Shown in pieces: positions 1-62,329 of a stretch of DNA of 64,000 nt. Each line of letters begins with the position of its first letter. The first letter of the stretch is position 1. The DNA comes from Nonlabens spongiae. Its GTDB lineage: Bacteria; Bacteroidota; Bacteroidia; Flavobacteriales; Flavobacteriaceae. Under the pieces are notes generated by a model, which searched no databases, was not told the DNA's origin, and was given only the letters and a program-made list of their open reading frames with translations. Location: contig NZ_CP019344.1 of the NCBI RefSeq assembly GCF_002117125.1, positions 2,384,501 through 2,448,500 of the forward strand, written 5' to 3'. The translations under genes and the position numbers were made by a program.

Positions 1-808
1 CCTGATTGAATAAAGCACGCAAATTAGACCACAATCCTAAAATAATTCCGGTAATAAAAGGTAACGGCATTTTTTTATAACGTGCTGATAGAATACTTAC
101 GTACAAACTGTCAAACCAAAGTGGTTTTTCTTCAAGTAGCTCAAATTTGTCATTGAAGAAATTTGTTACTGCCTGTCGATTGAAGTGAAATAAATGCCTA
201 GGCACGTCGTAGGCGGCCCAGTATTTTTTAAAGAATTTTGCGTCCCACGAGTCATAATTAGGTAACGCTAGAATTAAAATTCCATCAGGCATTAACAAAT
301 TTTCTATCTGGCGTTTCTGAGCGATAATGTCGGGAACGTGTTCTAATACGTGATACATGCTTATCAGCCCATACAAATCCTGCTCCTCGTTTTCAAGGCT
401 TGATTTAAGATGGACGCCCTGATCAAGAGCGATTTTTCTTGCCTTTGAATTGGGCTCAAAACCCTCAGCATCTAGACCGGCAATCTTTAATTCTTTTACC
501 AGATCTCCAACTCCAGCTCCAATATCCAGCACAGGTTTTCGACCAGCATATTGAGCAATAAGTTTTGACTTTGATTTGAGATTTACCGCTTTCGCGAAAG
601 CGTAACAACGAGCAAAAAAGGAGTCCGTTTTCTTAGAGTGCGATAAATATTCATCGCTCTCATAGTAAGAATCTAGATTTTCTGGGACTGGCAAAGTCTT
701 GAGAATTTGCGTATCAGAATCTTTCAATAGCTGAAAATCTTCACCAGAAAGAAAATAATCTCGAAGTTTGAGAATGGGTCGGTCGAAGTTCAAATTAATT
801 TGTTTCAC
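1..808 (-). CDS. Class I SAM-dependent methyltransferase, partial (3' end beyond window)
   Basis: I translated this minus-strand frame by hand; it runs open from a GTG at 808-806 to the window edge, about 269 codons. The SAM-binding glycine motif reads VLDIGAGVGDL, followed about 60 residues later by the post-motif SMYHVLEHVPD and then ILILALPNYDSW, the pattern of the Methyltransf_23/11 families. The substrate cannot be told; a lipid, glycan or tRNA substrate are all possible. The GTG start lies inside a parS-type palindrome and follows the mnmG stop by only a few bases, so the gene is probably the last of the DUF4175-ybeY-mnmG operon. A copy of the dispersed 16-bp palindrome (587-602) is read in frame as AFAKA just before the SAM motif. 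No ATG lies near the start; a TTG five codons later is the alternative start. Confidence 0.8.
   Translation of the reverse strand, partial: MKQINLNFDRPILKLRDYFLSGEDFQLLKDSDTQILKTLPVPENLDSYYESDEYLSHSKKTDSFFARCYAFAKAVNLKSKSKLIAQYAGRKPVLDIGAGVGDLVKELKIAGLDAEGFEPNSKARKIALDQGVHLKSSLENEEQDLYGLISMYHVLEHVPDIIAQKRQIENLLMPDGILILALPNYDSWDAKFFKKYWAAYDVPRHLFHFNRQAVTNFFNDKFELLEEKPLWFDSLYVSILSARYKKMPLPFITGIILGLWSNLRALFNQ
587..602. repeat. Dispersed palindrome CGCTTTCGCGAAAGCG, copy 1
   Basis: Exact copy inside the methyltransferase gene, read in frame as AFAKA just upstream of the SAM-binding motif. Confidence 0.9.
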
Positions 809-816
809 GTGAAACT
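801..816. promoter_or_regulatory. parS: parS-type ParB binding site (15 of 16 match)
   Basis: TGTTTCACGTGAAACT differs at only the last base from the widely conserved parS palindrome TGTTTCACGTGAAACA. It spans the mnmG stop codon and the GTG start of the methyltransferase. ParB nucleation here would mark an origin-proximal chromosome region. No parA or parB gene is in the window, so the role is inferred from the motif. Confidence 0.8.
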
Positions 817-2686
817 ATCTACCCATGTGAACCAAAAGCACCGAAATATCACTAGGCGTCACACCCGAAATACGAGAAGCTTGAGATACTGTTACCGGTT
901 GAATTTTAGTTAGTTTTTCACGAGCTTCATAAGATAAAGAGGCTAGATTTTTGTAATTATAGTTAGGTGGAATTTTGACATTCTCTAGGCGATGAAGCTT
1001 ATCAGCATTATTTTTCTCCTTTTCAATGTATCCAGCATATTTGACACGTATCTCCACTTGTTCCAAAATGTCCTCGTCTAGATCGTGTTCCTCGATATAA
1101 TTCTGGAATTGAGGAAGCGTCTTCATATCCTCGGTTGTGATCTGTGGTCTAGAAAAGACTTTATATAACTTGTCGTTTTGTTTGACGGTAGCGGTTTTTT
1201 TGCGTTCCAGCAGTTCATTGATCTCTTTGAAATCATAACTAGTATCTTTGAGGAACTCAACCATATGATTCGCTTTTTCTTGCTTCTCCTCCACTCTTTT
1301 TAGGCGAGCTTCGGGTATAATTCCTAACTCAACCGCTCTGGGCGTGAGACGCAAATCTGCATTATCTTGGCGTAATAAGGTCCTATATTCTGCTCGGGAA
1401 GTGAACATGCGATAAGGTTCTTCGGTACCTTTTGTGATAAGATCATCGATTAGAACACCTATATAAGCCTCGTCACGGCCTAATATAAATTCTTCTTCTT
1501 CTCTAATTTTTCTGACGGCATTAATTCCTGCCATCAAACCTTGAGATGCAGCCTCCTCATAACCGGTGGTACCGTTTATTTGACCAGCGAAATACAGATT
1601 ATCAACCGATTTGGTTTCAAGTGTGTGTTTTAACTGCGTAGGAGGAAAATAATCATACTCAATAGCATAACCAGGACGGAAAAATTTCACATTTTCAAAA
1701 CCTGTTACAGATCTAAGCGCTTTAAATTGGACATCTTCTGGAAGTGATGTGCTAAAACCGTTGACGTATACTTCACATGTGTTCCAACCTTCGGGTTCTA
1801 CAAAAATTTGGTGACGATCCTTATCTGCAAAACGGTCAATCTTATCTTCAATACTTGGACAATATCTTGGACCTATAGATTGAATACGACCATTGAACAT
1901 AGGGCTGCGATCAAAACCTTCCCTCAGTAAATTGTGAACTTCAGGACTTGTGTAGGTCATGTGACAATCACGTTGCAGACTCAAAGGTGTAGTGATACTA
2001 GAATAACTAAATTTTGAAGTAATAACATCACCAGGCTGCGGAATCATTTTAGAATAATCTAGAGATCTACCATCAACGCGTGGAGGAGTTCCCGTCTTCA
2101 TTCTGCCAGATTCAAAACCAAGGGCAATTAATTCTTCTGTGATTCCAGTAGAAGCTCTTTCACCGGCTCTACCACCTCCAAATTGTTTTTCTCCTATATG
2201 GATCAAACCATTTAAAAAGGTTCCATTAGTCAATATGACCGCCTTACTTCTTATTTCCAATCCTAAAGAAGTGCGCACACCTAGTAACTTATTATCGTCA
2301 ACAATTAATCCAGAACACATTTCTTGATAGAAATCAAGATTCTCGATAGATTCTAGTTGCAGTCTCCATTCTTCGGCAAAACGCATGCGGTCGTTTTGAG
2401 TCCTAGGCGACCACATTGCAGGACCTTTAGATTTATTAAGCATTTTGAATTGAATAGCGCTCTTATCACTTACAATTCCTGAATACCCGCCAAGCGCATC
2501 AATTTCTCGCACAATCTGACCCTTAGCGATTCCACCCATTGCTGGATTGCAAGACATCTGTGCGATATTCTGTAGATTCATGGTAACCAAAAGCGTTTTG
2601 GCCCCCATATTGGCAGCAACAGCAGCAGCCTCACTACCAGCGTGACCTGCTCCTACTACTATTACATCATATTCCTTTTCAAACAT
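815..2686 (-). CDS. mnmG: tRNA uridine-5-carboxymethylaminomethyl modification enzyme MnmG (GidA)
   Basis: MnmG works with MnmE to install the carboxymethylaminomethyl group at the wobble uridine of several tRNAs, using FAD and a folate carbon; it acts in the cytoplasm. The 623-aa protein has the family's usual length. The FAD dinucleotide motif GAGHAG lies at residues 12-17, the conserved CNPAMGGIAKG follows near residue 46, and the C-terminal helical domain ends in the typical VTPSDISVLL segment. The ATG at 2686 is two bases beyond the ybeY stop, so it is translated in the same operon. parS-like palindromes sit at both ends of the gene. In many bacteria gidA lies close to oriC, which agrees with these sites. 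Confidence 0.98.
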   Translation of the reverse strand: MFEKEYDVIVVGAGHAGSEAAAVAANMGAKTLLVTMNLQNIAQMSCNPAMGGIAKGQIVREIDALGGYSGIVSDKSAIQFKMLNKSKGPAMWSPRTQNDRMRFAEEWRLQLESIENLDFYQEMCSGLIVDDNKLLGVRTSLGLEIRSKAVILTNGTFLNGLIHIGEKQFGGGRAGERASTGITEELIALGFESGRMKTGTPPRVDGRSLDYSKMIPQPGDVITSKFSYSSITTPLSLQRDCHMTYTSPEVHNLLREGFDRSPMFNGRIQSIGPRYCPSIEDKIDRFADKDRHQIFVEPEGWNTCEVYVNGFSTSLPEDVQFKALRSVTGFENVKFFRPGYAIEYDYFPPTQLKHTLETKSVDNLYFAGQINGTTGYEEAASQGLMAGINAVRKIREEEEFILGRDEAYIGVLIDDLITKGTEEPYRMFTSRAEYRTLLRQDNADLRLTPRAVELGIIPEARLKRVEEKQEKANHMVEFLKDTSYDFKEINELLERKKTATVKQNDKLYKVFSRPQITTEDMKTLPQFQNYIEEHDLDEDILEQVEIRVKYAGYIEKEKNNADKLHRLENVKIPPNYNYKNLASLSYEAREKLTKIQPVTVSQASRISGVTPSDISVLLVHMGR

Positions 2687-2688
2687 AG

Positions 2689-3108
2689 CTATTGTTTCAC
2701 GTGAAACATTTGCATCATTTCACTCTCCTTCTCGCGCATTAGATTCTTTTCGTGTAGAGTTTTATCCCCATAACCCATTAAGTGTAACAAGCCATGAACT
2801 ATAACGCGACGCAACTCATCAGACTCATCCACATCAAACACAGCAGCATTATCTTTTACTCGATCTGTGCTGATATAAATCTCACCTTCAAGCATTCCTT
2901 CTGAGGAATAATCAAAAGTGATGATATCTGTGTAAGTGTCGTGATCAAGAAATTGCTGGTTTATTTCTAAAAGATAGTCATCTGAACAAAAAATGTAATC
3001 TAATTTTCGAATCACATTATTTTCTACTGAAGCTACTTCACATAACCAACGACGATAATTCCTAGCATCAATATGAGTAAAATCATTCTGATAGTGAAAA
3101 CTAATCAT
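2689..3108 (-). CDS. ybeY: Endoribonuclease YbeY (rRNA maturation factor)
   Basis: YbeY is a metal-dependent endoribonuclease needed for 16S rRNA 3' processing and ribosome quality control. The 139-aa protein has the family motif near residue 104 as HGLLHLMGYGD. The usual third zinc ligand of HGxLHLxGYDH is a histidine; here that place is aspartate. The start ATG overlaps the end of the DUF4175 gene by 8 bp, and mnmG follows after 2 bp, so the three are translationally linked. The last codons, giving FHVKQ, are made by a perfect parS palindrome, so the C-terminus is shaped by a DNA site. Confidence 0.95.
   Translation of the reverse strand: MISFHYQNDFTHIDARNYRRWLCEVASVENNVIRKLDYIFCSDDYLLEINQQFLDHDTYTDIITFDYSSEGMLEGEIYISTDRVKDNAAVFDVDESDELRRVIVHGLLHLMGYGDKTLHEKNLMREKESEMMQMFHVKQ
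2693..2708. promoter_or_regulatory. parS: parS-type ParB binding site (perfect palindrome)
   Basis: TGTTTCACGTGAAACA is a perfect 16-bp palindrome and matches the broadly conserved bacterial parS consensus. It overlaps the last codons and stop region of ybeY. A second, nearly identical site lies 1.9 kb away at the far end of mnmG; multiple parS sites near the origin are usual. Confidence 0.88.
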
Positions 3109-6100
3109 CGTCCTTAAAATATTCCTTTACACGCTCTTTAAATTGCGGCTGCAAAGGTAATACTTGGCGGTTTAAAATCTCCTTGGTATTAAAGTACTTA
3201 GCAGGATCAACGTTGAGCTTGTTAATCGGATTTGAAAAGCTGTCGTTTCCACGTTCCGCTTCTCTCTGATCTTCTTTACCCTGAAACAATCCAGCATCTT
3301 TTAGTTTCAATAATTCGTGAGTGACCTGCATCATACGCTTTTCCACATCACGGTCATAGCCCCTATCGATCAATCTGCGCTCTACATCTTTCATGCGGTC
3401 CGTGATGTTACCCACTTTTCCTTCTAAACCTTCTTTACGGATCATATCTTCCAACTGATTCCGCAACTCTTGTTGTTGCTTATAGATCTCGTAAATGCGG
3501 GCGCTTTCCTCTTCAGACTCGCGGTAGGTATTCTCGTCAGAATCTGTATTTCCTTGACCACTACCGTTACCCGAACCGTTGCGGCTGTCCTTTCCACCTT
3601 GTTTTCCGTTCTCGCCCTGTTGACCTCCATCTTCTCCACTCTGACCAGACTGACCGGACATTCCAGATTGTCCTGACTGACCAGATTGTCCTTGCTGTCC
3701 TTGTTCTCCCTCCTGACCGGGCTGACCCGAACTACCAGGCTGCACGGCTTCACCTTCTTCACCAGGCTTCTTCCCATCCTTTCCTTGCTTGGAAAGAGAT
3801 TCCTGCTTTTGAATAATATCAGATAATTGGAAACCGCCACCTTGACCCTGACCGGGCTTACCCATACCCTGACCGGACATACTCATGGCATTATTCATTT
3901 GATCTAATGAATTGCTAAGCATAGCAGCAAGCGTATTGGCACTTTTCAAGGCAAACTGTTGAGAGGCTGAACCTTGTTGCATTTCAAATTCACCAAGTTG
4001 AACAAGGGTTTTGTCTAAATAATAATAAATATCAGTAATCTCTTTATTGATATCTTGACTGATTTTGGGATTACGAGAAGCCAATGCAAACAAGCTGTCA
4101 TCAACATGCTTGAAAGCCTTTTCTAAATCCTTTTGAACCCTCAATTTTTTTCCGAAACTCGGACTGCTCTTTGTGATTTCTTGAACTCCCTCTATAAGAT
4201 TCTCTTGTTCTACAGAAAATGTTACAAGATTATCGAGAATCTGTCTGAGCATTTCCGCATCTTCTTGCTGACCCTGCATACTCATGCTTTGCGACTGTGC
4301 TGCCATTGCTTGGGCTTGCTTTTTCATCTTTTTGGCAGCGTTTTTCTGTTTTTTGCCCGCTTCTGATGACTTCTGTTCTTGCAAATCTTCACTAGCTCCC
4401 TGTTGATCTTCCTTAATCTCGTCACCATCCTCCGGATCAAATTCTAGATCCATGGGTTTTTTCAAGTCCTCATTTTCCTTACCTAGTTCTTCAAGTTCCT
4501 TTTCCCATTTCTTATACTCTTCGTTAAGTTTATCTTGATCTTCTTTTTTGTTATCTGAACCCTCCTTCTCTGATTGCTGTTCTTGTTTCTCAGCAATGTC
4601 CATGAGTTTACGGCCCAGTTGCTCAAACTTTTGCTCCACATAATAGCGCTTTGTGAGCTCCAGTAATTGCTCTAGCGTGCGCTTCTGTTGCTTGGACTTC
4701 TTCTGGGATTGCTCAATTTTATCCTTGAGTTCTTCCTTGCTGAGTTTATCCTGATATTTCTGAAGTTCTTTGAGAAGCTCCTCATTTTCTTTGATTTCTT
4801 CTATGCTTTTCTCCATGCGATCCTTCAGCTCATTTTTCATGGGATCATCTTCAGCATTGTATTTTTCAAGATTGTCTTTAACCCGCTCCATTTGCTGGCG
4901 CATGAGTTGCTCTTGCTTTTCTTGATTTTTTAAAGCATTCTCGAGCTTCTTCTGGTCGTTATAAGTTCTATTTTTCTTCTCGATCTGTTCCTTGGCCAGT
5001 TCTTCTAGCTGTCGATCTTGTTTTTCTTGCTCAGACAGCGCATTCTCAATATTGGAAAGGGATTCTCGTTGTTTTTGAAAAAGTTGGTCCTCTTCCTCAC
5101 TTTTATCCACCTTACTGAAGGAAAATACTTCAGACCGTGCGGTTTTGAAATTATTTACCACATCATTATCAGTTGCCTCAAAATAGAATTGATAGGTGTT
5201 GCCGCCCTCTAACACTAACCGATCTGGAAAGGTGTAGAAGAATTGGTCAAAAATCCCCTTGTTAGACCGTAGCGTCAATCTTTTCTTACTGGCTTGATCA
5301 TTTTGTTTATAATAAATAAGTGATATAGAGCGCAGACCATAATCATCTGCCGCTTGACCTTTGAAATACATAATGTTTGTATCGATCGAGTCTTGCTTCA
5401 TGGCTACTTCAATCTCGGGATATTCATCACGGGTTACATCGAGCTTGAAAGACAGTCGTTCGTGATCTTTGATATTATCATTTGAGGTAGAAATGGCGTA
5501 ACGAGTGGGTTGTAATACCGCTTTCGCGAAAGCGAACTCATCACCAGCCCTATCAAAAGCAATGACCGTATCCTTCTCAACAAAATCCACAGCCGTTGCG
5601 TTGCGAGCCGAAAGTTTCCAACTCACCCGCGTTCCCTGCGGTATCGTAGCATTACCGGTGCTGCGCACGACCTCATCCTTTTTGCCCGTATGCGCTGGAT
5701 AGTCCAGAACGAGTTGGAAGTCTTCAATTACAGGAACAGCACCCACAGTCACTTGATAATCAGTACTGCGTACCTCGTTGCCCTCAAGATAGAATTCAAA
5801 ATTCTCAGTAGGATTTTCAAAAACAAAGCTGTAGCGGTCTGCCGCCTCTTGATTCAGGTAAAAAGTTTTACCCTGATAGTGAATGCTGACATTTTCAGGT
5901 AGTTTCTCCCCTATTACCTGTACGTCCATTCTCAAATCCTTTTGCTCCAGCGTTTGAAGCTGTTCATTCATTACCTTGAAAGTAAAGGGTGCTGGCGGAG
6001 TGTACTCGGTTTTGTAGTCTGCAACACGGGTAGCGCTGCTGGTGATCACATCATTGTTTCCCGTGAAAAATAAAGCTGCGACAATTATCACGGGAATCGC

Positions 6101-8998: not shown

Positions 8999-9016
8999 CC
9001 GGCAAATAAAATAGCT

Positions 9017-10534
9017 ATGAGTCAGCCCGTACGTGTAAGATTTGCTCCCAGTCCTACCGGTCCTTTGCATATAGGTGGTGTAAGAACCGCACTTTTCAAT
9101 TATTTGTTTGCTAAAAAATATAACGGAACCTTCGTTTTACGAATCGAGGATACAGATCAAAACCGCTATGTAGAAGGAGCTGAAGATTACATCAAGGAAG
9201 CTCTGGACTGGTGCAACATTCCTTATGATGAAGGTCCTGGACGTGAGGGTGAATATGGCCCCTACCGTCAGAGCGAGCGTAAAAATCGCTACCGTAAGTA
9301 CGCTGAAAAGCTAATTTTGAACGGTGCTGCCTATTATGCTTTTGATACTCCAGAAGAACTGGACGCAGCCCGTAAAAAAGCCGAAGGAAACAAACAAACC
9401 TTCATCTACAACCATAAAAATCGGGATGAGTTTAAGAACTCCCTGACGTTATCCCAAGAAGAGGTAGATCAACGTATCTCAGCAGGAGACGATTACGTTA
9501 TACGCTTCAAGCCTGAACTTAAAATGCTGGGAATGTTTGATGAGATACGTAAGGGTATCGAGATCGACACCAGCCTTTTGGATGATAAGGTGCTTTTTAA
9601 AAGCGACGGCATGCCTACCTATCACTTGGCAAATGTGGTGGATGATCACGAGATGGAAATCACCCACGTGATACGTGGCGAGGAATGGCTGCCCAGTATG
9701 GCGCTGCACGTTTTGTTGTATGAAAGTTTTGGTTGGACCGCTCCTAAATTTGCGCACCTGCCACTTATTCTTAAACCTACAGGGAAAGGAAAACTCTCCA
9801 AGCGCGATGGAGATAAAATGGGCTTCTCCGTTTTTCCGCTGGACTGGGTAGATCCTAAATCAGGCGAGAAAAGCAGCGGATTCAGAGAAGATGGATTCTT
9901 ACCAGAAGCGATGGTTAATATTCTAGCATTTTTAGGCTGGAATCCAGGAACGGATCAAGAAATTTTTACTCAGGATGAATTGGTTTCGGCATTTAACTTG
10001 GATAAAGTAAATAGTTCTGGAGCCAAGTATGATCCTGAAAAGGCAAAGTGGTTTCAGCAGCAATGGTTTGTGCAGCAAGATGATGCTGTTGTAGGTGCCG
10101 CTTTCGCGAAAGCGTTACAAGCTAAAGACATCTCCTACCCTTCTCAGGAATATGTTGACACAGTCTGTGGATTAGTAAAGGAAAGAGCCGTCTTTGTAGA
10201 TGATTTGTTTGACCTCTCTTTATTTTTCTTTGTAGCACCATCTGAATATGATGTAAAGAATGTCAAAAAATGCTGGAAGGATGATACAGGAGAAATCATG
10301 ACACAAGTTGCTGAACTTATCGAAAATTCTGAGGTGGAAACCGCGACAGAATACGCAGATCTCGTTAAAGGCTGGATCAAAGATCAAGATATGGGCTTTG
10401 GTAAAGTGATGATGCCTTTGCGATTGTCTTTAGTAGGAAGCCTCATGGGACCTGATGTATTTGAGATCGCGTCCATGATAGGGAAAGATGAAACGGTAGA
10501 TCGCATTAAAAAAGCTGTTTCTGAGCTGTCTTAG
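9017..10534 (+). CDS. gltX: Glutamate--tRNA ligase
   Basis: Charges tRNA-Glu with glutamate in the cytoplasm. The 505-aa class I synthetase has its HIGH-type motif as HIGG at residues 18-21 and the KMSKS-type motif as KLSKR near 259-263; the length is normal for bacterial GluRS. The start at 9017 gives the canonical N-terminus RVRFAPSPTG; upstream in-frame codons overlap the promoter. The dispersed palindrome at 10099-10114 is read in frame as AFAKA in the C-terminal anticodon-binding part, in a surface-type Ala/Lys helix. glnS lies 2.7 kb downstream on the other strand, so tRNA-Gln is probably charged directly. Confidence 0.98.
   Translation: MSQPVRVRFAPSPTGPLHIGGVRTALFNYLFAKKYNGTFVLRIEDTDQNRYVEGAEDYIKEALDWCNIPYDEGPGREGEYGPYRQSERKNRYRKYAEKLILNGAAYYAFDTPEELDAARKKAEGNKQTFIYNHKNRDEFKNSLTLSQEEVDQRISAGDDYVIRFKPELKMLGMFDEIRKGIEIDTSLLDDKVLFKSDGMPTYHLANVVDDHEMEITHVIRGEEWLPSMALHVLLYESFGWTAPKFAHLPLILKPTGKGKLSKRDGDKMGFSVFPLDWVDPKSGEKSSGFREDGFLPEAMVNILAFLGWNPGTDQEIFTQDELVSAFNLDKVNSSGAKYDPEKAKWFQQQWFVQQDDAVVGAAFAKALQAKDISYPSQEYVDTVCGLVKERAVFVDDLFDLSLFFFVAPSEYDVKNVKKCWKDDTGEIMTQVAELIENSEVETATEYADLVKGWIKDQDMGFGKVMMPLRLSLVGSLMGPDVFEIASMIGKDETVDRIKKAVSELS
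10099..10114. repeat. Dispersed palindrome CGCTTTCGCGAAAGCG, copy 3
   Basis: Exact copy inside gltX, read as AFAKA in the anticodon-binding region. Confidence 0.9.
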
Positions 10535-13044: not shown

Positions 13045-13060
13045 CGCTTTCGCGAAAGCG
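13045..13060. repeat. Dispersed palindrome CGCTTTCGCGAAAGCG, copy 4
   Basis: Exact intergenic copy between the ytxH promoter and the end of glnS, directly next to a second type of intergenic repeat. Confidence 0.9.
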
Positions 13061-16969: not shown

Positions 16970-17650
16970 TTAATCCACAAAATCGATGTTTCCACCTAAA
17001 AAACGCTTTTTCTTTCTTTGAGAAGGATTGCCGTAAACTGTGACATTACCACCAGCTCTTACCGCAACATCTACAGATTTTGAAGCATATACTTCTACCT
17101 CGCCGCCTGCTTGTACCTTTACTGTAACATGATCTGATTCTAGGCGTTCATTTTCTGCAATACCGCCAGTGTTGACGATTAAATTTTGGTGTTGAGAAGT
17201 CCCTTTGAGTTCTAAAATACCGCCAGTTACCGCTCTTAATTCAAGATTTTCTACCTTGAGACCCGCCTCTACCCTTGCTCCCTCCTGTACCCTGATCTCA
17301 AGTCTGGACTGTTCAATGAGTTCGTTTGATAAAATCTGTGCGCCTTCATTCCCATCAATGATTTCTAAATCTGTGTAATAGACATAAACAAAAGTATCCT
17401 CACCGTGAAAAATCATGTCAGTCTCCATGCGTATTTTGAGCATTCCGTCTTTTTCTATAAATTCTACCTGATCAGCATCGCGTCCTTTGATTAGAATTTT
17501 AGGTGTTTCTGATTTTACAAGATTTACCGTTATGAGATCAAATACCTTAATGGTATGAAATGGTTTAAGATCGATTTCTCTATTTGATTGCGCTTGCGCG
17601 AAAGCGAGACCTGCAAAAACTAATGATAGGAAGAATAAACTCTTTTTCAT
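16970..17650 (-). CDS. Exported head-GIN domain (DUF2807) protein
   Basis: A 226-aa protein with a signal peptide (about residues 1-20) followed by a right-handed beta-helix-like putative auto-transporter adhesin head-GIN domain (DUF2807): FHTIKVFDLITVNLVKS at the start, then repeating strands with GG turns (VRAGGNVTVYG). The function in Bacteroidota is unknown; exported envelope location is inferred. A variant of the dispersed palindrome (17591-17606) encodes the end of the signal peptide, AFAQA, where signal peptidase I should cut. Confidence 0.85.
   Translation of the reverse strand: MKKSLFFLSLVFAGLAFAQAQSNREIDLKPFHTIKVFDLITVNLVKSETPKILIKGRDADQVEFIEKDGMLKIRMETDMIFHGEDTFVYVYYTDLEIIDGNEGAQILSNELIEQSRLEIRVQEGARVEAGLKVENLELRAVTGGILELKGTSQHQNLIVNTGGIAENERLESDHVTVKVQAGGEVEVYASKSVDVAVRAGGNVTVYGNPSQRKKKRFLGGNIDFVD
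17591..17606. repeat. Dispersed palindrome, one-mismatch copy
   Basis: CGCTTGCGCGAAAGCG differs at one base from the consensus. It encodes the signal-peptidase region of the DUF2807 protein. Confidence 0.75.
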
Positions 17651-19076: not shown

Positions 19077-21263
19077 CTAGTCTGGTTTCCCCACCATCCA
19101 GAAATCAAGATGTTTCTTTACTAAATCTGCATTTTTGACGCGTACATAGACCTCATCTCCTAGAGTGTAGGTATTTTTTGTACGACGGCCTACTACGGCA
19201 AAGTCCTCTTCTACGTACTCATAGCTATCATCATCCAGATCACCCAGTCGTACCATTCCCTCACATTTGTTAGAAATGATCTCCACGTAAATTCCCCAAT
19301 CTGTCACACCAGAAATTACACCTAGGAAATCCTCGTCGGCGTGGTCTTTCATGAACTTGATCTGCATGTACTTGATCGAGTCACGCTCAGCCTTAGTAGC
19401 AAGGATTTCCATGTTTGTGGAATGATGGCATTTCTCTTCATATTCCTCTTCACTGCGGCTTTTACCACCGTCCAAATAATGTTGCAGTAGTCTATGCACC
19501 ATAACGTCTGGATAACGTCTAATGGGACTGGTGAAATGAGAATAGTAATCAAACGCCAGCCCGTAATGTCCAATGTTTTGAGTAGAATACTCAGCTTTAG
19601 ACATGGTTCTGATCGCAAGCGTGTCCACCATGTTTTGCTCTTTATTCCCTTGAACGTCTTTCAATAACTTATTTAAGGACTTCGTAACCGTTTTGCGATC
19701 TCGTAAGTCAAGTCTGTGACCAAATTTTGTTACCACCTTGGCCAGTGCACTCAATTTCTCGTCATTTGGCTCGTCGTGGATACGATAGACAAAAGTTTTC
19801 TTTGGCGACTGTTTTCCGATAAAAGCAGCCACTTTACGATTTGCCAATAACATGAATTCTTCAATCAACTTATTGGCGTCCTTGCTGGTCTTAAAGTAGA
19901 CTCCGGTAGGTTCTGCATTTTCATTGAGTGTGAATTTAACCTCAGTTTTATCGAAACTCAAGGCTCCGTCACGCATGCGTTGCGAGCGCATTTTTTTGGC
20001 CAGCTCGTCTAGTTTTAAAGTAGCTTCTACGATCTCGGGTTTTATGGTGGTACGCTTTCGCGAAAGCGAGATCTCTTCAGGAATAATTCCCTCTTGAGTT
20101 TCTATGATATGTTGCGCTTCTTCATAGGCAAACCGCTGGTCTGAATGGATCACCGTGCGGCCGAACCATTCTTTATGAACCTTACATTTTTCATCCATTT
20201 CAAAAACCGCAGAAAAACACAACTTATCCTCATGCGGATTCAAACTACAAACGCCATTTGATAGTACCTCAGGCAGCATGGGAACCACACGATCTACCAG
20301 ATAAACGGAAGTAGCTCGCTCATAAGCTTCCTCATCCAGAGGTGTGTCAGGCTGAACATAATGAGAAACATCAGCAATGTGAATCCCAATTTCGTAACGA
20401 CCATTTTCCAACTTTTTGAAAGAAAGTGCGTCGTCAAAATCTTTTGCATCAGCCGGATCTATGGTATAAGTGAGTGTATCACGCATGTCACGACGCTTGC
20501 TGATCTCTTTTTCTGAAATAGTCTTGTCCAGTTTCTGGGTAAACTCCTCCACCCGCTCTGGAAATTCATAAGGTAGACCGTACTGAGCTAAAATTGCATG
20601 AATCTCTGTGTCATGTTCACCCGGATCACCCAGTATCTCTTTAACGCGACCATTAGGCGAGTCTTGTTTGTCATTCCATTCCACAAATTCTACAAGTACC
20701 ACTTGACCATCTTTGGCACCATTGATCTGACGACCGGGAATAAAGAAATCTGTAGTGATTTTAGGGTCGGTTACTTTAACAAATGCAAATTTTTCAAGCA
20801 CCTCGATCTCACCAACAAATTCTGTCTTGTTGCGCTTAATTACCTTAGTGATCTCTCCCTCTGGTTGCTGTCCCCTGCGGCGGTGGTACACATATACTTC
20901 TACTTCATCGCCATGCAATGCCTGGCCTACACTACGTTTAGGGACCATGATATCTTCCTGGAGCTCGTTTGTGATGACGTAACCAGTACCACGAGAACTT
21001 ATATCTATAGTACCGGTGTAATAATCGATGGCTTTAATGATCTTGAACTTACCTCGATCAACTTCTTCAATTTTGCCTTTCGCTTTGAGCTGGTGTAACT
21101 TTTTTATTACTTGGTTCCGGCCACTGGAATCTGTGATCGATAGCTTGCCACAGACCTGTTTATAGTTGAAATTCTTATTTGGATCTTGTTTTAAAACGTT
21201 AAGTACACTCTGGGAGAGGTTCTTGAACTTAGTCTTAGACTTTCTATTTTTCTTTTTTTTCAT
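19077..21263 (-). CDS. rnr: Ribonuclease R
   Basis: A processive 3'-5' exoribonuclease that degrades structured RNA and takes part in rRNA and tmRNA quality control. The 728-aa protein has a basic N-terminus, a cold-shock/OB region, the RNB catalytic domain with IDPADAKDFDDALS (about residues 268-281) holding the catalytic aspartates, HYGLAFDYYSHFTSPIRRYPD later on, and a C-terminal S1 domain (VTDWGIYVEI). The start at ATG 21263 is chosen over a TTG three codons upstream that lies in the promoter box. The dispersed palindrome at 20053 is read here as LSRKR, the less common frame. Confidence 0.97.
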   Translation of the reverse strand: MKKKKNRKSKTKFKNLSQSVLNVLKQDPNKNFNYKQVCGKLSITDSSGRNQVIKKLHQLKAKGKIEEVDRGKFKIIKAIDYYTGTIDISSRGTGYVITNELQEDIMVPKRSVGQALHGDEVEVYVYHRRRGQQPEGEITKVIKRNKTEFVGEIEVLEKFAFVKVTDPKITTDFFIPGRQINGAKDGQVVLVEFVEWNDKQDSPNGRVKEILGDPGEHDTEIHAILAQYGLPYEFPERVEEFTQKLDKTISEKEISKRRDMRDTLTYTIDPADAKDFDDALSFKKLENGRYEIGIHIADVSHYVQPDTPLDEEAYERATSVYLVDRVVPMLPEVLSNGVCSLNPHEDKLCFSAVFEMDEKCKVHKEWFGRTVIHSDQRFAYEEAQHIIETQEGIIPEEISLSRKRTTIKPEIVEATLKLDELAKKMRSQRMRDGALSFDKTEVKFTLNENAEPTGVYFKTSKDANKLIEEFMLLANRKVAAFIGKQSPKKTFVYRIHDEPNDEKLSALAKVVTKFGHRLDLRDRKTVTKSLNKLLKDVQGNKEQNMVDTLAIRTMSKAEYSTQNIGHYGLAFDYYSHFTSPIRRYPDVMVHRLLQHYLDGGKSRSEEEYEEKCHHSTNMEILATKAERDSIKYMQIKFMKDHADEDFLGVISGVTDWGIYVEIISNKCEGMVRLGDLDDDSYEYVEEDFAVVGRRTKNTYTLGDEVYVRVKNADLVKKHLDFWMVGKPD
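20053..20068. repeat. Dispersed palindrome CGCTTTCGCGAAAGCG, copy 5
   Basis: Exact copy inside rnr, read as LSRKR in the RNB domain. Confidence 0.9.
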
Positions 21264-22623: not shown

Positions 22624-22639
22624 CGCTTTCGCGAAAGCG
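22624..22639. repeat. Dispersed palindrome CGCTTTCGCGAAAGCG, copy 6
   Basis: Exact intergenic copy between rpiB and the 95-aa gene, ending 14 bases before the start codon of the latter. Confidence 0.9.
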
Positions 22640-31935: not shown

Positions 31936-31951
31936 CGCTTTCGCGAAAGCG
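31936..31951. repeat. Dispersed palindrome CGCTTTCGCGAAAGCG, copy 7
   Basis: Exact intergenic copy between a terminator and recA, about 75 bases upstream of the recA start. Confidence 0.9.
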
Positions 31952-37290: not shown

Positions 37291-37306
37291 CGCTTTCGCG
37301 AAAGCG
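37291..37306. repeat. Dispersed palindrome CGCTTTCGCGAAAGCG, copy 9
   Basis: Exact intergenic copy directly upstream of the 86-aa gene, in its likely 5' leader or promoter. Confidence 0.9.
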
Positions 37307-41385: not shown

Positions 41386-42819
41386 ATGAATAAAAATGAT
41401 GATTTAATCAGATTGATTCAAGGTTTGAATGAGGCAGAGGCGGTTGGGTATCTCGCTTTCGCGAAAGCGAGAACTAAAAGAACTGATGCCCGACAAATCA
41501 AATTATTCAACTATTTGAGAAAAGGTCCTCAGAGCGATTTGAGTACGAAACTCTATGGCAAAAAAGGTAATAATGCCTACTACGCTCTTAAAAGTCGCTT
41601 GCAACAAAACCTTGTGCAATACCTAGCCATTCAAGGTTTTGAAACCGATCAAAGAGCAGAAATGGAAACGTTGCGTTTGTTGCTGGCCGGTAGAAAGTTG
41701 CTTCAAAGAGAATGCTATAGCCTAGCCAGAAAGACCTTGAAAAAAGCCGAAAAACTTGCCAAAGATTCAGAAGAATTCAATTTGCTCCATGAGGTATATC
41801 TGACCATGATCAGCGCTGCACACTTAATGAAAATAGATGCAGGTAAGTTGAAGTCTGCCTGGGAGGCTAATCGGGTCTTAATCGATAAAAATGACCGGCT
41901 CGCTTTGCTTTTCATGAATTTTAAAACGAATCCAGACGCTCAGCGATTAAAGACATTAAGGAAATTATCCTCAGAGCTTGAGATAGAAATCAGTTCTGAT
42001 CTGAGCGTTAAAAGCCTTTTTGAGATACTGGATTTGTATACAGACGCGGCATCTCGAGAAGGAAATTATCATCTTATAACTGCAGAATTAGAGATGGTGG
42101 AAAAAGCGTTGACCTCAAAACATCCATCGCTTTTGAACACCCATAATTATTATGATTTACTATTCTTACTTGCGTTATCTTTTTCAAGAATTACTCAATT
42201 TAATCGCGCACTTCACTACCTCTCTTTGTTACAAAAAAGTGACCAACAATCTAAGTCAAGAACTGAGGAAGTCATAATGCTTCAGGCGCTATGCAATAAT
42301 TATTTAGGAAAGGCAATGGAGGCGATAAAATGTCTTGAGCATGCTGCACTCGATCGTTTAGATGCTAAATGTCTATTAGCATCATTTTATTTGCAACAAA
42401 GGCAACCAGAAAAAGCCTTGCGTCAACTGAATAAACTCAAACATCAAGACCTCTATTATGAACGACATTACACCGTACAGCTGGTTGTAAAGAAAAACCT
42501 TTTGTTGCTATTGATTTATGTAGATCTTAAAATGGAGAACCTTGTAGACTCACAGCATAGAAAGATTCAGCGCAAAAGAACAACTCTTGAAAAGATAGGG
42601 GAGGAGCGTATCTTGGATTTTCTCAGGCTTATTTTAATAAGTAATGAGAATAGGAATGCTTTATTAACTAAATCCTTCAGCGATAAGCTGGAAGAGTTAA
42701 CTATTTCCGATTTTGCTGAAGATGTCTTTGCCATGAGTTTTTACGCTTGGCTCAAATCAAAAAGCGAAAACAGACCTCTTTATGAAGTAACACTAGAGCT
42801 TGTTCAAAATATGACTTAA
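41386..42819 (+). CDS. Helical repeat protein of unknown function, 477 residues
   Basis: A cytosolic, mostly alpha-helical protein that looks like degenerate tetratricopeptide repeats (for example NRALHYLSLLQKSDQQ, AMEAIKCLEHAALDRLDAKC, QPEKALRQLNKL). No signal peptide or membrane segment. A palindrome in its N-terminal region is extended to 22 bp by flanking TCT/AGA and encodes LAFAKAR. I do not recognise a family; a flavobacterium-specific scaffold is likely. It is convergent with dprA. Confidence 0.75.
   Translation: MNKNDDLIRLIQGLNEAEAVGYLAFAKARTKRTDARQIKLFNYLRKGPQSDLSTKLYGKKGNNAYYALKSRLQQNLVQYLAIQGFETDQRAEMETLRLLLAGRKLLQRECYSLARKTLKKAEKLAKDSEEFNLLHEVYLTMISAAHLMKIDAGKLKSAWEANRVLIDKNDRLALLFMNFKTNPDAQRLKTLRKLSSELEIEISSDLSVKSLFEILDLYTDAASREGNYHLITAELEMVEKALTSKHPSLLNTHNYYDLLFLLALSFSRITQFNRALHYLSLLQKSDQQSKSRTEEVIMLQALCNNYLGKAMEAIKCLEHAALDRLDAKCLLASFYLQQRQPEKALRQLNKLKHQDLYYERHYTVQLVVKKNLLLLLIYVDLKMENLVDSQHRKIQRKRTTLEKIGEERILDFLRLILISNENRNALLTKSFSDKLEELTISDFAEDVFAMSFYAWLKSKSENRPLYEVTLELVQNMT
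41454..41469. repeat. Dispersed palindrome CGCTTTCGCGAAAGCG, copy 10
   Basis: Exact copy inside the 477-aa gene, read as AFAKA. The symmetry continues for three more bases on each side. Confidence 0.9.
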
Positions 42820-43930: not shown

Positions 43931-43957
43931 GTGATAGTAATAGCTTTTTTTGAGTTT

Positions 43958-43973
43958 CGCTTTCGAGAAAGCG
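43958..43973. repeat. Dispersed palindrome, one-mismatch copy
   Basis: CGCTTTCGAGAAAGCG lies in the short gap between the O-antigen ligase gene stop and the dprA start. Confidence 0.75.
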
Positions 43974-46405: not shown

Positions 46406-47657
46406 ATGAGAAAATACTTAACCACAATGCACTAAAGGTTATACCGTCATATCTGATTAAAAAGTCATCAGTCAAATTAGATGCCGCAAAAAGGATAAAG
46501 AAAAATATGATCAGACTATTCTTAAGCTTAACACCTAAATATAAGATCAAAAGCATGAATGTTATAGTCCCCAGCAAACCCAAAACTCCAAATTTGAGTA
46601 GAAAATCTATATATTGATTGTGAGTAGGAAAACGGTATTTAGCCAGAAACTTTTGATTCGTATCTATATATGCTTGATTAAGTTCATCTTTCCCATCAGC
46701 CGCACCTACTCCTAGCCAAATATCTCTCTTAGCTCTCTCTAAAGCGGTATTCCATATACTTACACGTGTAACTAGACTACTATAAACTGTTATCTCCGGC
46801 CTATCAATTTCATCAAGCTTATTTACTTTATCCATATGAGCAAATGCAACTTGAGTAAATTTCTTCTCTGTGTACGGGAACGCTTTCGCGAAAGCGTAAA
46901 AACCTAATGCTGAAAATATAGTTACGCAAATGCTTGTAAAAGCAATCTTCCGAAGGGATGTTTTTTTTGATAACTCGAAAATAGTGCTGGAAAGCAGGCC
47001 TACAAAAGCCAAAACAATTGCAAGTCGTGTGTTGATTATAAGAAGTATAGCTATGGAATTTAAGAACATTACGACCTTAACCGCCAAAGAAAAAGTTACA
47101 TTTCTTAATGAAGAAGTTATCAATAGATAAAATAGCGTACAGACGAGAAATGCGACATGCATATTCAATGCAGGAGCGTGAACGGTGGTGCTATTGGCAA
47201 ATTCGTAGCCCATTTCCCACAGGTGTTTACCGTTGATGTATTTGTTTACATGATCTGTTTTGATTATTGTGAATCTTAAGAGAAGCACATTCAAGATAAG
47301 TAGGAAAATACAGGAATAATATTTGAGAATTCTACGTAATTTAATTTGCTTGAAGTAACCGAGGATCACGAGAGGTAACAACAGTAGACTCGAGCGTTTC
47401 TCTAAATGTTTAAAACCTTCTATAATACTATCGTTGTTCCAAATATACAGGATGTCGAGCAAAAAAGGTATTGAAATAATCAAGAGAAGCTTGAGATTCT
47501 CTCTTGTGAAAGCAAACTTTCTTATGAATAGCAAATGCATGGCTATGAACAAAATCAAAAGAGGTGTTCCTACCTTTCTGAAGACTAAAAGTGATGCAAG
47601 TACTGCAATTATAATATCATATCTGTCAGCCAGAAAGCTCCTTACTTTTTCAAGCAT
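46359..47657 (-). CDS. O-antigen ligase/polymerase family protein (Wzy_C type), second copy
   Basis: A 432-aa inner-membrane protein with many helices and a periplasmic loop containing RAKRDIWLGVGAADGKDELN followed by FPTHNQYIDFLLKFG, the pattern seen in the first copy. The two differ widely elsewhere. One may be the polymerase (Wzy) and one the ligase (WaaL), but which is which cannot be told. The palindrome at 46881 encodes AFAKA in a periplasmic segment. It overlaps the neighbour upstream by 8 bp. Confidence 0.85.
   Translation of the reverse strand: MLEKVRSFLADRYDIIIAVLASLLVFRKVGTPLLILFIAMHLLFIRKFAFTRENLKLLLIISIPFLLDILYIWNNDSIIEGFKHLEKRSSLLLLPLVILGYFKQIKLRRILKYYSCIFLLILNVLLLRFTIIKTDHVNKYINGKHLWEMGYEFANSTTVHAPALNMHVAFLVCTLFYLLITSSLRNVTFSLAVKVVMFLNSIAILLIINTRLAIVLAFVGLLSSTIFELSKKTSLRKIAFTSICVTIFSALGFYAFAKAFPYTEKKFTQVAFAHMDKVNKLDEIDRPEITVYSSLVTRVSIWNTALERAKRDIWLGVGAADGKDELNQAYIDTNQKFLAKYRFPTHNQYIDFLLKFGVLGLLGTITFMLLILYLGVKLKNSLIIFFFILFAASNLTDDFLIRYDGITFSALWLSIFSSIYLKQRLYKDQPIA
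46881..46896. repeat. Dispersed palindrome CGCTTTCGCGAAAGCG, copy 11
   Basis: Exact copy in the second ligase-like gene, read as AFAKA. No copy occurs in the next 7.4 kb. Confidence 0.9.
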
Positions 47658-53926: not shown

Positions 53927-54988
53927 TTATCTGATGTAAGTTTTGTACATCATCCTAACCCCTTCCTCCAGCTCCACCTCATGCTTCCATCCCAGCTCAT
54001 GAAGCTTTGTAACATCAGTAAGTTTTTTAGGTGTACCATCCGGTTTAGAGTCATCCCAGATTAGACTTCCTTTGTAACCTATTATGTTCTGTATTATTTC
54101 AGCTAGGTTTTTGATGGAAACGTCAACCCCTGTTCCTATGTTGATATGGGTATTGCGTACTTCTTTTTTGCCTTTTGAAACATCCACAAAGTTCACTTCA
54201 TTCATAACGTGAATACAGGCACTCGCCATATCGTGTGACCAGAGGAACTCTCGCATAGGAGTACCACTGCCCCATAATGTGATGTGATTTTCTGTAATAC
54301 CGTGTTTTTGTAATTCCGCTTTCGCGAAAGCGAGATCCACGACAGTATCATCTTTAGAAAAACGCTGAAAATCTGCTACTAAATCATCGTGCCGACCTTC
54401 CATCAATAATTTCCCCAGATGCATCTTACGTATCATAGCCGGCAATACATGCGACTTTTCAAGATCAAAATTATCGTTAGGCCCGTACAGATTAGTAGGC
54501 ATAACCGATAGAAAGTTTGTACCATATTGCAGGTTGTAGCTCTCACACGTTTTGATCCCGGCGATTTTTGCAATCGCATAAGGCTCGTTAGTATATTCTA
54601 ATTCACCAGTAAGAAGACTGTCTTCAGGCATGGGCTGCGGCGCCATTTTTGGGTAAATGCATGTACTACCTAAAAATAAAAGCTTTTTGACACCCGCTTT
54701 GTAGCTCTCATGAATCACATTATTCTGAATCATGAGGTTTTTATAGATAAAGTCTGCTCTATAGGTATTGTTGGCAACGATGCCTCCTACACTGGCTGCC
54801 GCCAGAAAAACGTAGTCTGGTTTCTCTTCTTCAAAAAAACACCTTGTAGCCGCTTGATCTGTTAGGTCAAGTTCTGCATGGGTGCGTTTTATGATGTTTG
54901 AATAGCCTAGCTTTTCAAGCTCTGTAGTAATAGCGCTTCCTACAAGGCCCCTATGACCAGCCACATAAATTTTAGATTCCAACTCCAT
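53927..54988 (-). CDS. fcl: GDP-L-fucose synthase
   Basis: Epimerises and reduces GDP-4-keto-6-deoxymannose to GDP-L-fucose using NADPH. The 353-aa protein has GHRGLVG (residues 11-17) and the catalytic YAIAK (137-141). It is the long Bacteroidota form with an extra stretch of about 35 residues before the WGSGTPMREFLW motif; the palindrome at 54317 encodes AFAKA in this insert. The stop of gmd and this start share the bases TAATG. Confidence 0.96.
   Translation of the reverse strand: MELESKIYVAGHRGLVGSAITTELEKLGYSNIIKRTHAELDLTDQAATRCFFEEEKPDYVFLAAASVGGIVANNTYRADFIYKNLMIQNNVIHESYKAGVKKLLFLGSTCIYPKMAPQPMPEDSLLTGELEYTNEPYAIAKIAGIKTCESYNLQYGTNFLSVMPTNLYGPNDNFDLEKSHVLPAMIRKMHLGKLLMEGRHDDLVADFQRFSKDDTVVDLAFAKAELQKHGITENHITLWGSGTPMREFLWSHDMASACIHVMNEVNFVDVSKGKKEVRNTHINIGTGVDVSIKNLAEIIQNIIGYKGSLIWDDSKPDGTPKKLTDVTKLHELGWKHEVELEEGVRMMYKTYIR
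54317..54332. repeat. Dispersed palindrome CGCTTTCGCGAAAGCG, copy 12
   Basis: Exact copy inside fcl, read as AFAKA within the lineage-specific insert. Confidence 0.9.
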
Positions 54989-56111: not shown

Positions 56112-56945
56112 TTAGTTTTTATAATGACTTACTACTTTATCAAGAGCCTCGTCAATAGTTCTGATTGTATAATTAAATACCTGACTCGTTCTAGACGTAT
56201 CCATAACGCTGTACTCAGGTCGCTTTGCCGCAGTTTTAAATTCACTCACGGCACTAATTCTTTTATTTAGGTTGAGTTTCTCATTTATCGCTTTCGCGAA
56301 AGCGTACCATGTCCATTCACCCGTATTTGTGAAATGATAGATCCCGTAATGTTCAGGATCATTTGAAACCAGGTGTCGTACAAAATCAGCAACTGACAGA
56401 GCACTCGTGGGCGATCCAGTCTGTGTATCAACAATACTCAATTCTGATTGCTCAGATTCTGCTACCCACCTAAAAAAGTTCTTACCGTGGGGTGCGTATA
56501 ACCAAGAAATTCGGAACACATAGAATTTACCGCTAATTCGTGTAATAGCTTTCTCACCAATCAATTTACTGTAGCCATAAGCATTGATAGGGTCAACTGT
56601 GGCATCAGTGGTATAAGGTTGAATAGCCGATCCATTAAAAACATAGTCTGTTGAAAAATGAATCAAAGTCGAGTTATACTGGTTACAGATTTGGGCTAGC
56701 TTCTCAACGCCAGACCCATTTACTGCTATAGACTTTTCTTTCTCTTTTTCTGCTAAATCAACAGCAGTGTATGCAGCGCAATTGATCACATAATCTGGTC
56801 GTAGATTTCTGAGAGTACGATCCATTTCATGAGGGCAGGTAAGGTCAAAATCTTTTTTTGAAACAGCTACTACCTCATGATCTGTAAGCGCTTGTCCAAT
56901 CGCCTGACCCAGCATTCCTTGAGCGCCTGTGATCAAAATTTTCAT
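56112..56945 (-). CDS. rfbD: dTDP-4-dehydrorhamnose reductase
   Basis: Last step of dTDP-L-rhamnose synthesis. The 277-aa SDR-extended protein has GAQGMLG (residues 7-13), the catalytic YGYSK (123-127) and the [10 protein letters not shown] segment. rfbA, rfbB and rfbC are not in the window. The palindrome at 56289 gives AFAKA in the loop after TGEWTWY. It lies in the wzz-rfbD-gmd-fcl operon, 13 bases from wzz. Confidence 0.95.
56289..56304. repeat. Dispersed palindrome CGCTTTCGCGAAAGCG, copy 13
   Basis: Exact copy inside rfbD, read as AFAKA. Confidence 0.9.
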
Positions 56946-58064: not shown

Positions 58065-59774
58065 CTAGAACTGTTCATGAGCTGGTTCGAGAATTTGCTC
58101 CAGGATCTTTTCAGTAATCACGTAGACGGGTTTCACTCCTGTGAGCCCCAGACCGCCGCTGGCGAGTGTATGTCCAGTCTTCATAGGGTTGTCACTTGCA
58201 TAATAAGCATACCTTACCTCAACCTTTTTTCGTATGCTTCGGCGCACTCTGGAGGCTGCCTGTATGGCTTTTTGATAATGTGCACCTTCCATTTCTAGTC
58301 CTATAACCTTCCAGCTCGAGTCATAGAAAAACTTGAGTAAGTCTTTGTTTTGAAGTGAGGTTCCCAATACGGTCACCATACTTCCAGATACTACGCTTAT
58401 CCCTTCTGTTTTAAGATCTTTTTTTGAGAGCTTGTTTTTAAATGGATAATTATCCGCCGTTCCTTCAAACACGTGGGCATTTGGAACCATTATATCACCT
58501 TTATCTCCTTCAAGAATTCCCGCCTTACCCATTATATTGATAGAATAAACGTTCATTTGTTCGGCTTTCTCATCAATGTAAAATGGTTTGAGTAACTCAT
58601 CCATAGTCTCATAAGCCTGCTCCCCAAAGGCATAGTCCATTACGATTATAACAGGCTTTTTATGGTTCTCGCTTTCGCGAAAGCGTGCTCCCACAAATCC
58701 TACGTTTTTGAAATCGCATTTAGCGGTATCAAAAATCTGTACATCTATATTAGTCCCACTCTCGTCTAATAGCTCATACATGCCATTATTGAGAGCTGTT
58801 TTCTTGACCATATCTCTAGACTTCTTGCCGCTCGCTGTACTGAGTCCAGCAAAAACCTCCATGCGATCTTTCTTTGCCATTTGAGCTGCAAGCGCTTGAG
58901 GGCCATAGAAGGAGTTCATGACACTGTGCAGGTTTGCACTGATTATGTGAAGCGGTCTTTCAAAAAGGTCTTTCTCCCATAGAAACTTCTTGATACGCTC
59001 TGCCCAGCGCTCACCGTGGATATGGTGTCCCAGTCGCTCACGCAGCACAGGTGAGAATGTGACTAGGCGTTTTTCCTCATCAAGAATTTCCTTCCTGGCG
59101 AGAGCACCTAAGTGATAAATGACGCTTAGGAATCTATTGGGATTATCAGCTGTGGCAAACTTTGGATACACTTCCATGACCTCTTCATAAGTGCGTCCCA
59201 AGATATTAGCTACATGAATCACCGCGACTTCCTTTTCATTTTGGGTAAGCTTTTTCTTGGCTACAGAATCTTCTAAGCATTTCCAGTCGCGAGTAGTATT
59301 GCCATGATCACCTACAATTACCTGTTTCATGATTTTATGTGACTCGATCATAAGAAAGGTTAGGTGAGTGAGTATATCATAGATCTCAGAACGACCGCGC
59401 GTGATCTCGATGTTCATTTGATGCTTATCGATGCGATAGCAATTGCGACGTCTTTTTGCGGGAATAATGGGAGTGAAGTGCGATCTTGCGTACCCTTCAT
59501 CGCTAGTAAGATTAATGTAGGTACACTCCTCGATGCCTGTAGGTAGTCGATCCATGACATACAGCAAACCGCTCAATTCAGATTTTGCCTCAGCGATAGA
59601 GCCATATATTTCTGGGCGTAATGCAAGTAGAGATTCTCTAAGACTTTCACCACTCACACCCATGGGTTTATAAAAACCCCTATTGAAAAGATGTCTCATA
59701 GTAATGTAGAGACGTTCTATGGCGCCTGTGCTTTCTTGCGCCCTGGTGCGTGGTTCCGGATTGATTATCGGCAT
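58065..59774 (-). CDS. Conserved protein with nucleoside-phosphorylase-like C-terminal part (DUF6909-like)
   Basis: A 569-aa cytosolic protein. The N-terminal half (QESTGAIERLYITMRHLFNR) is helical with no family I recognise. The C-terminal third has GLEMEGAHYQKAI, close to the MEGAA motif of nucleoside phosphorylases, and SGSMVTVLGTSL. The label DUF6909 is from memory. The start at 59774, MPIINPEPRTRAQ, is chosen because upstream in-frame codons lie in the promoter. The palindrome at 58670 is read as RFRES. Confidence 0.75.
   Translation of the reverse strand: MPIINPEPRTRAQESTGAIERLYITMRHLFNRGFYKPMGVSGESLRESLLALRPEIYGSIAEAKSELSGLLYVMDRLPTGIEECTYINLTSDEGYARSHFTPIIPAKRRRNCYRIDKHQMNIEITRGRSEIYDILTHLTFLMIESHKIMKQVIVGDHGNTTRDWKCLEDSVAKKKLTQNEKEVAVIHVANILGRTYEEVMEVYPKFATADNPNRFLSVIYHLGALARKEILDEEKRLVTFSPVLRERLGHHIHGERWAERIKKFLWEKDLFERPLHIISANLHSVMNSFYGPQALAAQMAKKDRMEVFAGLSTASGKKSRDMVKKTALNNGMYELLDESGTNIDVQIFDTAKCDFKNVGFVGARFRESENHKKPVIIVMDYAFGEQAYETMDELLKPFYIDEKAEQMNVYSINIMGKAGILEGDKGDIMVPNAHVFEGTADNYPFKNKLSKKDLKTEGISVVSGSMVTVLGTSLQNKDLLKFFYDSSWKVIGLEMEGAHYQKAIQAASRVRRSIRKKVEVRYAYYASDNPMKTGHTLASGGLGLTGVKPVYVITEKILEQILEPAHEQF
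58670..58685. repeat. Dispersed palindrome CGCTTTCGCGAAAGCG, copy 14
   Basis: Exact copy inside the phosphorylase-like gene, read as RFRES. Confidence 0.9.
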
Positions 59775-59789
59775 ACTGTTTTTAAAGCA

Positions 59790-62195: not shown

Positions 62196-62211
62196 TACTC
62201 TATTGACTTAA

Positions 62212-62219
62212 CAAATATA
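62212..62219 (-). promoter_or_regulatory. Promoter -7 box TATATTTG of the M23-GH3 operon
   Basis: Exact TAnnTTTG box on the minus strand, 16 bases before the start codon. Confidence 0.65.
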
Positions 62220-62313
62220 GGATTTTGCACTCGAGCTGATAGTTCAACTCTATTTGAAGAAATTTGTTGCTTAAAATGAGTTTTAAAGGTTCTGAGGAGT
62301 TTGTAGTGGTTTA

Positions 62314-62329
62314 CGCTTTCGCGAAAGCG
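62314..62329. repeat. Dispersed palindrome CGCTTTCGCGAAAGCG, copy 15
   Basis: Exact intergenic copy three bases after the ABC ATPase gene stop. Confidence 0.9.

Follow-up and report, generated by a model that had tools for sequence, protein, structure and literature searches.

We analysed a 64,000-nucleotide stretch of the Nonlabens spongiae chromosome (called the window here), through which a 16-bp perfect palindrome, CGCTTTCGCGAAAGCG, recurs both inside genes and between them. It belongs to a genome-wide system of sites that is real and is best read as selected. An earlier note, made from this sequence, had reported 15 exact and three degenerate copies; all were recovered at the same starts, the degenerate ones with 1, 3 and 1 mismatches. 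As that note had it, genes hold ten of the exact copies, of which seven read AFAKA, two RFRES and one LSRKR, and dprA lies within the window (42830-44008, minus strand). Five exact copies (13045, 22624, 31936, 37291 and 62314) are outside any called gene. The copies are as follows.

587..602, exact, AFAKA frame, in an open frame on the minus strand running to the window start
5519..5534, exact, AFAKA frame, in a minus-strand gene (3101-6568); found with at most one core mismatch in 15 other aligned Nonlabens species
10099..10114, exact, AFAKA frame, in a Glu-tRNA synthetase-type gene (8996-10534, plus strand)
13045..13060, exact, intergenic
17591..17606, degenerate with 1 mismatch, reading AFAQA, in gene 16970-17650 (minus strand)
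20053..20068, exact, LSRKR frame, in the RNase R gene (19077-21272, minus strand)
22624..22639, exact, intergenic
23428..23443, degenerate with 3 mismatches in 16, in a rhodanese-domain gene (22928-24037, minus strand)
31936..31951, exact, intergenic, 75 bp upstream of recA (32027-33040, plus strand)
35837..35852, exact, RFRES frame, in an acyltransferase gene (35796-36536, minus strand)
37291..37306, exact, intergenic
41454..41469, exact, AFAKA frame, in gene 41386-42819 (plus strand)
43958..43973, degenerate with 1 mismatch, reading AFSKA, at the start of dprA (minus strand)
46881..46896, exact, AFAKA frame, in an O-antigen ligase-like gene (46359-47657, minus strand)
54317..54332, exact, AFAKA frame, in an epimerase-family gene (53927-54988, minus strand)
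56289..56304, exact, AFAKA frame, in an RmlD-like gene (56112-56945, minus strand)
58670..58685, exact, RFRES frame, in a DUF6909 gene (58065-59819, minus strand)
62314..62329, exact, intergenic

The copy upstream of recA and the degenerate copy in dprA are probably there by coincidence.

Abundance, strictness and flanks

The exact 16-mer occurs 671 times in the 3.39-Mb N. spongiae genome, and its 14-bp core, GCTTTCGCGAAAGC, occurs 779 times or ~230 per Mb, with the outer C/G pair preferred; the reversed control of each gave 0. With as many as 3 mismatches allowed, dinucleotide shuffles of the window yielded 0.13 matches. The count over the whole genome, one of the two refutation tests in the earlier note, greatly exceeds chance, and the description of a palindrome spread through the genome, tolerated in coding DNA in the manner of HIP1 (highly iterated palindrome 1) and too uniform for a transposon, was borne out. 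Among 118 sites sampled from this genome, 50 were intergenic, 67 genic and 1 lay across a gene end, though 85.5% of the sequence is coding. Eight of the intergenic sites had convergent neighbours and nine divergent ones, with no evident excess of either as judged without statistics, and a terminator or promoter role is therefore unsupported. The second contig of the genome (L273, 13959 bases) carries two exact sites and encodes an AAA_15 ATPase and an integrase; seven of its open reading frames were looked up, and none was a replication gene.

We scored core mismatches in 543 kb of the N. spongiae genome against an order-3 Markov null. Cores with 0, 1, 2 and 3 mismatches numbered 126, 8, 6 and 14, compared with 0, 0, 1.7 and 14.7 under the null; the sites are nearly all-or-none. 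The mismatch ratio would correspond to scaled selection of ~6.5 per base if the 42 single-step neighbours are taken as equally likely. The outermost bases are looser, as the first or last base differs in 24 of 31 one-mismatch 16-mers (464 kb). Strictness is lower in a Dokdonia genome (G250), where 16-mers with 0, 1, 2 and 3 mismatches numbered 32, 7, 11 and 5 in 160 kb, and much lower in the genome of one further genus (G234), with 9, 16, 10 and 7 in 200 kb.

Base preferences extend symmetrically ~28 bp past each end of the word, as profiled over 79 intergenic and 119 genic Nonlabens sites and 39 Dokdonia sites. In Nonlabens, mirror-wise on both sides, G is nearly absent at -1, T is favoured at -2, -3, -6 and -9 to -12, G is favoured at -14 and -15, and C is depleted to about -28; intergenic and genic sites are alike in this. 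The outer pattern is the same in Dokdonia, while positions -1 to -3 differ (A at -1, 0.67; T at -2, 0.79). The depletion of C would reflect recognition, because DNA damage would account for neither a rise in G nor a fall in A.

Formation, spacing and distribution of the sites

Masked nucleotide alignment may exaggerate gaps, so the genic sites were compared again at the protein level (10 distinct positions). Alignment with outgroup orthologues was gap-free at nine of the ten positions. Identity to the outgroups was 0.28 at the site and 0.51 beside it, with the site the less conserved in 8 of 9 cases. For own-genome sites only the difference shrank: identity was 0.47 at the site versus 0.63 beside it with outgroups and islands (lower in 5 of 6), and 0.37 versus 0.49 with Dokdonia and G234 (lower in 6 of 9). 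Within Nonlabens itself, at least one orthologue without the site was found at eight of the ten positions, and seven of these eight aligned without a gap. In RNase R, for example, the N. spongiae protein reads SLSRKR where an outgroup reads SLTGKA, with no gap. The genic sites arose through in-frame substitution in place, at a cost to the protein. For genic sites this answers the choice between insertion and substitution that the earlier note had raised for comparison of orthologues, and leaves its suggestion of a spreading motif without support.

Most positions are conserved across Nonlabens, but few are common to Dokdonia. In 875 masked comparisons within the genus, in which syntenic stretches share positions and are not independent, the site was exact in 504, had one mismatch in 98, 2-5 mismatches in 28 and at least 6 in 245. 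Nonlabens sites were found at the same place in G250 in 2 of 39 comparisons and in G234 in 0 of 37 by masked alignment, and in 2 of 48 and 1 of 48, respectively, at the protein level, where the species pairs draw repeatedly on a small number of positions. G250 and G234 shared 1 of 5 positions (masked) or 2 of 5 (protein level).

The sites are also evenly spaced: stretches of more than ~6 kb without a site are few, and hardly any two sites lie within 1.5 kb of each other. Exact cores in the same 543 kb had a mean gap of 4.2 kb and a coefficient of variation of 0.57, compared with 0.97 for uniform placement and 0.757 for the lowest of 2000 simulations. Gaps below 1.5 kb numbered 3 of 123, where 36 were expected. 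Spacing looks alike in stretches of other Nonlabens, which are orthologous and so not independent. Two long chromosome runs (479 kb, at most one core mismatch allowed) contained a single gap above 9 kb. Coverage of 21 sampled stretches was roughly even, and no origin-terminus polarity was seen, both judged by eye. The one long site-free stretch (~20 kb, chromosome 284123-304526) has a G+C content of 0.357 in part and holds a beta-lactamase-family gene (PF00144); it is possibly a recent acquisition.

Abundance of the word is limited to few genera. Across a 397-genome family sample and a 395-genome phylum sample, the 14-bp core was abundant in all 23 Nonlabens genomes (N. spongiae and 22 others, 288-857 copies), in Dokdonia G250 (857) and in G234 (408). 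The rest of the family sample held 0-19 copies, and no genome in the rest of the phylum sample had more than 6; among the matches listed from a wider collection, single core matches occurred in unrelated taxa too, and further genera hold isolated copies. A two-protein tree joined G234 to G250 and placed Nonlabens elsewhere, with weak branches, and a single clade was not rejected (p 0.325). Four motif-poor relatives (G035, G131, G145 and G029, 100 kb each) showed no dispersed palindrome of comparable strength. G145 holds another dispersed repeat, which is present 13-14 times per 100 kb and has GGCAGCGACGCC and ACGGTTAAGGCTAA blocks. The word CTTCGGAA stands 5-7 fold above Markov expectation, with 49 (G029) and 30 (G145) copies per 100 kb on both strands, and is possibly another iterated word or a product of codon usage. 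In the accessible portion of the PMC open-licence literature, GCTTTCGCGAAAGC appeared in no paper and TTTCGCGAAAG and CTTTCGCGAAA only in one structural paper; no report of a comparable flavobacterial element came up among the titles and openings of abstracts in that set.

Metal-resistance islands and phages

Stretches carrying the palindrome in nine motif-poor genomes mostly share DNA with one another and form an island family, whose genes, annotated in G131 only, encode heavy-metal efflux and resistance. The family spans genera of the Flavobacteriaceae (L182, L191, L185, L183, L195 and others) with the palindrome at recurring positions; in several genomes two copies lie 933 bp apart. The G131 pump has homologues (E up to 1e-200) in 15 of 23 Nonlabens, in G250 and in G234, which makes 17 of the 25 motif-rich genomes; six of the 17 (five Nonlabens and G250) carry it at 97-98% identity. 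In the cusA-type gene of the islands, some alleles have CGCCTTAATGAAAACG where others hold a perfect site. At two places 388 bp apart in this gene, 10 of 11 alleles with one site were without the other, and 4 of 5 in the reverse direction, among alleles that are related and so not independent. Exact cores at the cusA positions, counted over places within 3 mismatches, were 17 of 27 in motif-poor hosts versus 23 of 26 in the comparison set (p 0.054), the foreign islands having been chosen for still holding a match; this hints weakly at decay of the site in motif-poor hosts. A comparison of L332, L338, L340 and L192 with L331 at the junction next to the cusA-type gene placed an AFAKA site in an N-terminus that resembles a signal peptide. 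In other alleles this N-terminus is a different one and the DNA is longer by ~80 bases, yet the site's outer bases persist.

Sites with no more than one core mismatch were counted in eight virus records. Four contigs, apparently related by their site spacing, have 3-6 sites in 12-31 kb, and the genes looked up in three of them include integrase, major head protein, portal and tape-measure proteins. A contig with tail sheath and terminase genes has 8 sites in 37 kb. Mean spacing is host-like, at 4.3-5.1 kb, in four contigs. The three others have only 1-2 sites in 58-111 kb and may belong to other hosts.

Reader and function of the sites

The word is kept beyond the needs of the proteins, its footprint is wide and symmetric, and it is limited to certain lineages; we infer from this that it is very probably selected and read in trans, by some lineage-limited DNA-reading factor. 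Searches for ParB_N, PF00145 and ComEC did not find the reader. ParB_N matched in 19 of 19 genomes, six of them motif-rich. Extra ParB_N frames of 616 aa occurred in N. spongiae (G000), G019 and motif-poor G145 and in none of motif-rich G002, G020, G250 and G234, so an extra ParB is not supported as the reader. A search of motif-rich G020 and G234 for PF00145, the C5 methyltransferase family, found no member; of the methyltransferase target that the earlier note had proposed, the C5 class, the one searched for, is without support. ComEC is present in N. spongiae and in all 21 genomes tested, motif-rich or motif-poor, and hence does not discriminate between them.

We tentatively favour, by analogy, a self-DNA recognition signal of the natural-transformation kind, a palindromic counterpart of the DNA uptake sequence (DUS) of Neisseriaceae and the uptake signal sequence (USS) of Pasteurellaceae. 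DNA bearing the site would be taken up preferentially, and alleles with sites would spread through biased recombination. A second site on one fragment would add nothing, which would give rise to the exclusion zone, and resident prophages and islands would acquire their sites through the same process. This reading is preferred because lineage-limited words, differing flanks and substitution in place at a protein cost are known behaviour of uptake signals, whose lineage variants are termed 'dialects'. We count towards it the restriction to few genera, the inner flanks that differ between Nonlabens and Dokdonia like such dialects, and the different positions in the two genera under the same core. 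Further points are the tolerance of sites in genes with enrichment between them, their formation in place with an amino-acid cost, the even spacing, and the presence of DprA in the window and ComEC in the genome. DUS and USS likewise occur in hundreds of perfect copies in genes and gaps and form by substitution, as the genic sites do here. In Haemophilus influenzae, the available text of one study describes USS that are relatively even in spacing and AT-rich flanks that contribute to uptake (PMC7811141); even spacing and AT-rich flanks are features of the Nonlabens sites as well. The flavobacterium Riemerella columbina prefers self-DNA without an established signal, according to the accessible part of another (PMC7965970).

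Several observations weigh against an uptake signal. USS and DUS are directional and non-palindromic, while the Nonlabens word is a perfect palindrome. It also differs from them in its 14-16 bp with symmetric preferences on both flanks, ~230 copies per Mb, very few one-mismatch cores in N. spongiae and a 1.5-kb exclusion, all known here from sequence. ComEC is uninformative, as noted, and no receptor was found; reports of competence in Nonlabens or Dokdonia were not specifically searched for. The islands reach genera otherwise without the motif. Absences of a site in Nonlabens are only partially compensated nearby: the nearest site to an absence lies at a median of 2.2 kb, whereas the distance is 1.0 kb from random points and 2.9 kb from the same sites to their neighbours in the species that carries them. 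The string 'palindrom' has no occurrence in the available text of the H. influenzae study (PMC7811141). The palindrome and the near-missing one-mismatch class suit a dimeric DNA-binding protein at least equally, and the odds are close because both speak for a dimeric chromosomal protein.

Such a protein is the main rival, possible though on the unlikely side: a lineage-specific chromosome organiser akin to Noc, MatP, SlmA or ParB, forming an even lattice about ten times denser. The 16-bp palindrome with symmetric flanks to ~28 bp, the near absence of gaps below 1.5 kb with roughly even coverage, and the positions largely kept within the genus are consistent with it, and parS, Noc, MatP and SlmA sites are likewise palindromic sites of dimeric proteins, some of them genic. 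Those sites number ~10-80, in contrast to 779 cores in N. spongiae; no extra ParB is common to the motif-rich genomes searched, no polarity was seen by eye, and positions are rarely common to Nonlabens and Dokdonia. It is doubtful, though conceivable, that the sites form a self-marking lattice, in which a large reader complex with a ~70-bp footprint would require one site per 2-6 kb of resident DNA, and chromosome, prophages and islands would have converged on the 14-bp word, with proteins rewritten to fit. That a defence or maintenance system acts against site-less DNA, forcing phages and islands to adopt the site, we consider improbable. The host-like spacing in four phage contigs and the single gap above 9 kb in 479 kb point that way, but that gap is ~20 kb free of sites (284-304 kb) and three of eight virus contigs, possibly from other hosts, are nearly bare; we know of no system acting against site-less DNA in this way.

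An element created or maintained by a cognate methyltransferase with mismatch repair, like HIP1 (GCGATCGC) of cyanobacteria, is about as improbable. HIP1 is also a highly iterated palindrome tolerated in coding DNA, with its function unsettled, and alternate HIPs come with matching methyltransferases. The Nonlabens word is twice as long and from another phylum, its 14-16 bp exceed the usual length of a methyltransferase site, and the motif-rich genomes searched have no C5 methyltransferase in common. Orphan methyltransferases for internal sequences accompany HIP1, as the accessible part of one paper reports (PMC4390886). Of the earlier interpretation, then, the likeness to HIP1 and the distinction from transposons stand, whereas the spreading insertion (for genic sites) and a methyltransferase target of the C5 class are not supported; an uptake signal and a nucleoid or segregation protein site are both still candidates. 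A mobile or selfish inserted repeat, resembling repetitive extragenic palindromes (REP), bacterial interspersed mosaic elements (BIME) or miniature inverted-repeat transposable elements (MITE), would explain dispersed high copy number and greater frequency between genes. We regard it as very improbable: REP and BIME are extragenic, whereas the genic copies here replace gene sequence in frame, in three reading frames and with spacing exclusion, and the gap-free protein alignments contradict an insertion element for genic sites (9 of 10 against outgroups, 7 of 8 within Nonlabens). Codon bias or an AFAKA peptide motif can be set aside almost entirely. Of the 119 Nonlabens genic sites, with orthologues from different species counted separately, 71 are in the AFAKA frame, but the other frames hold 31 and 17, 79 Nonlabens sites are intergenic, and motif-poor genomes of the family sample hold 0-19 copies. 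Codon bias for AFAKA alone, which the earlier note had named as a possible refutation, is thus ruled out by the three frames and the 50 of 118 own sites between genes.

As an uptake signal, the palindrome would be without precedent in Bacteroidota, as far as is known, and no other palindromic uptake signal is known; it could then serve as bait for the bacteria's DNA receptor. As an architectural site, it would make a lattice encoded in the sequence of a bacterial chromosome, and a very dense one. In both cases the word may be usable as a footprint of gene flow, and the islands in motif-poor genera that still carry it suggest an earlier stay in a motif-rich host.

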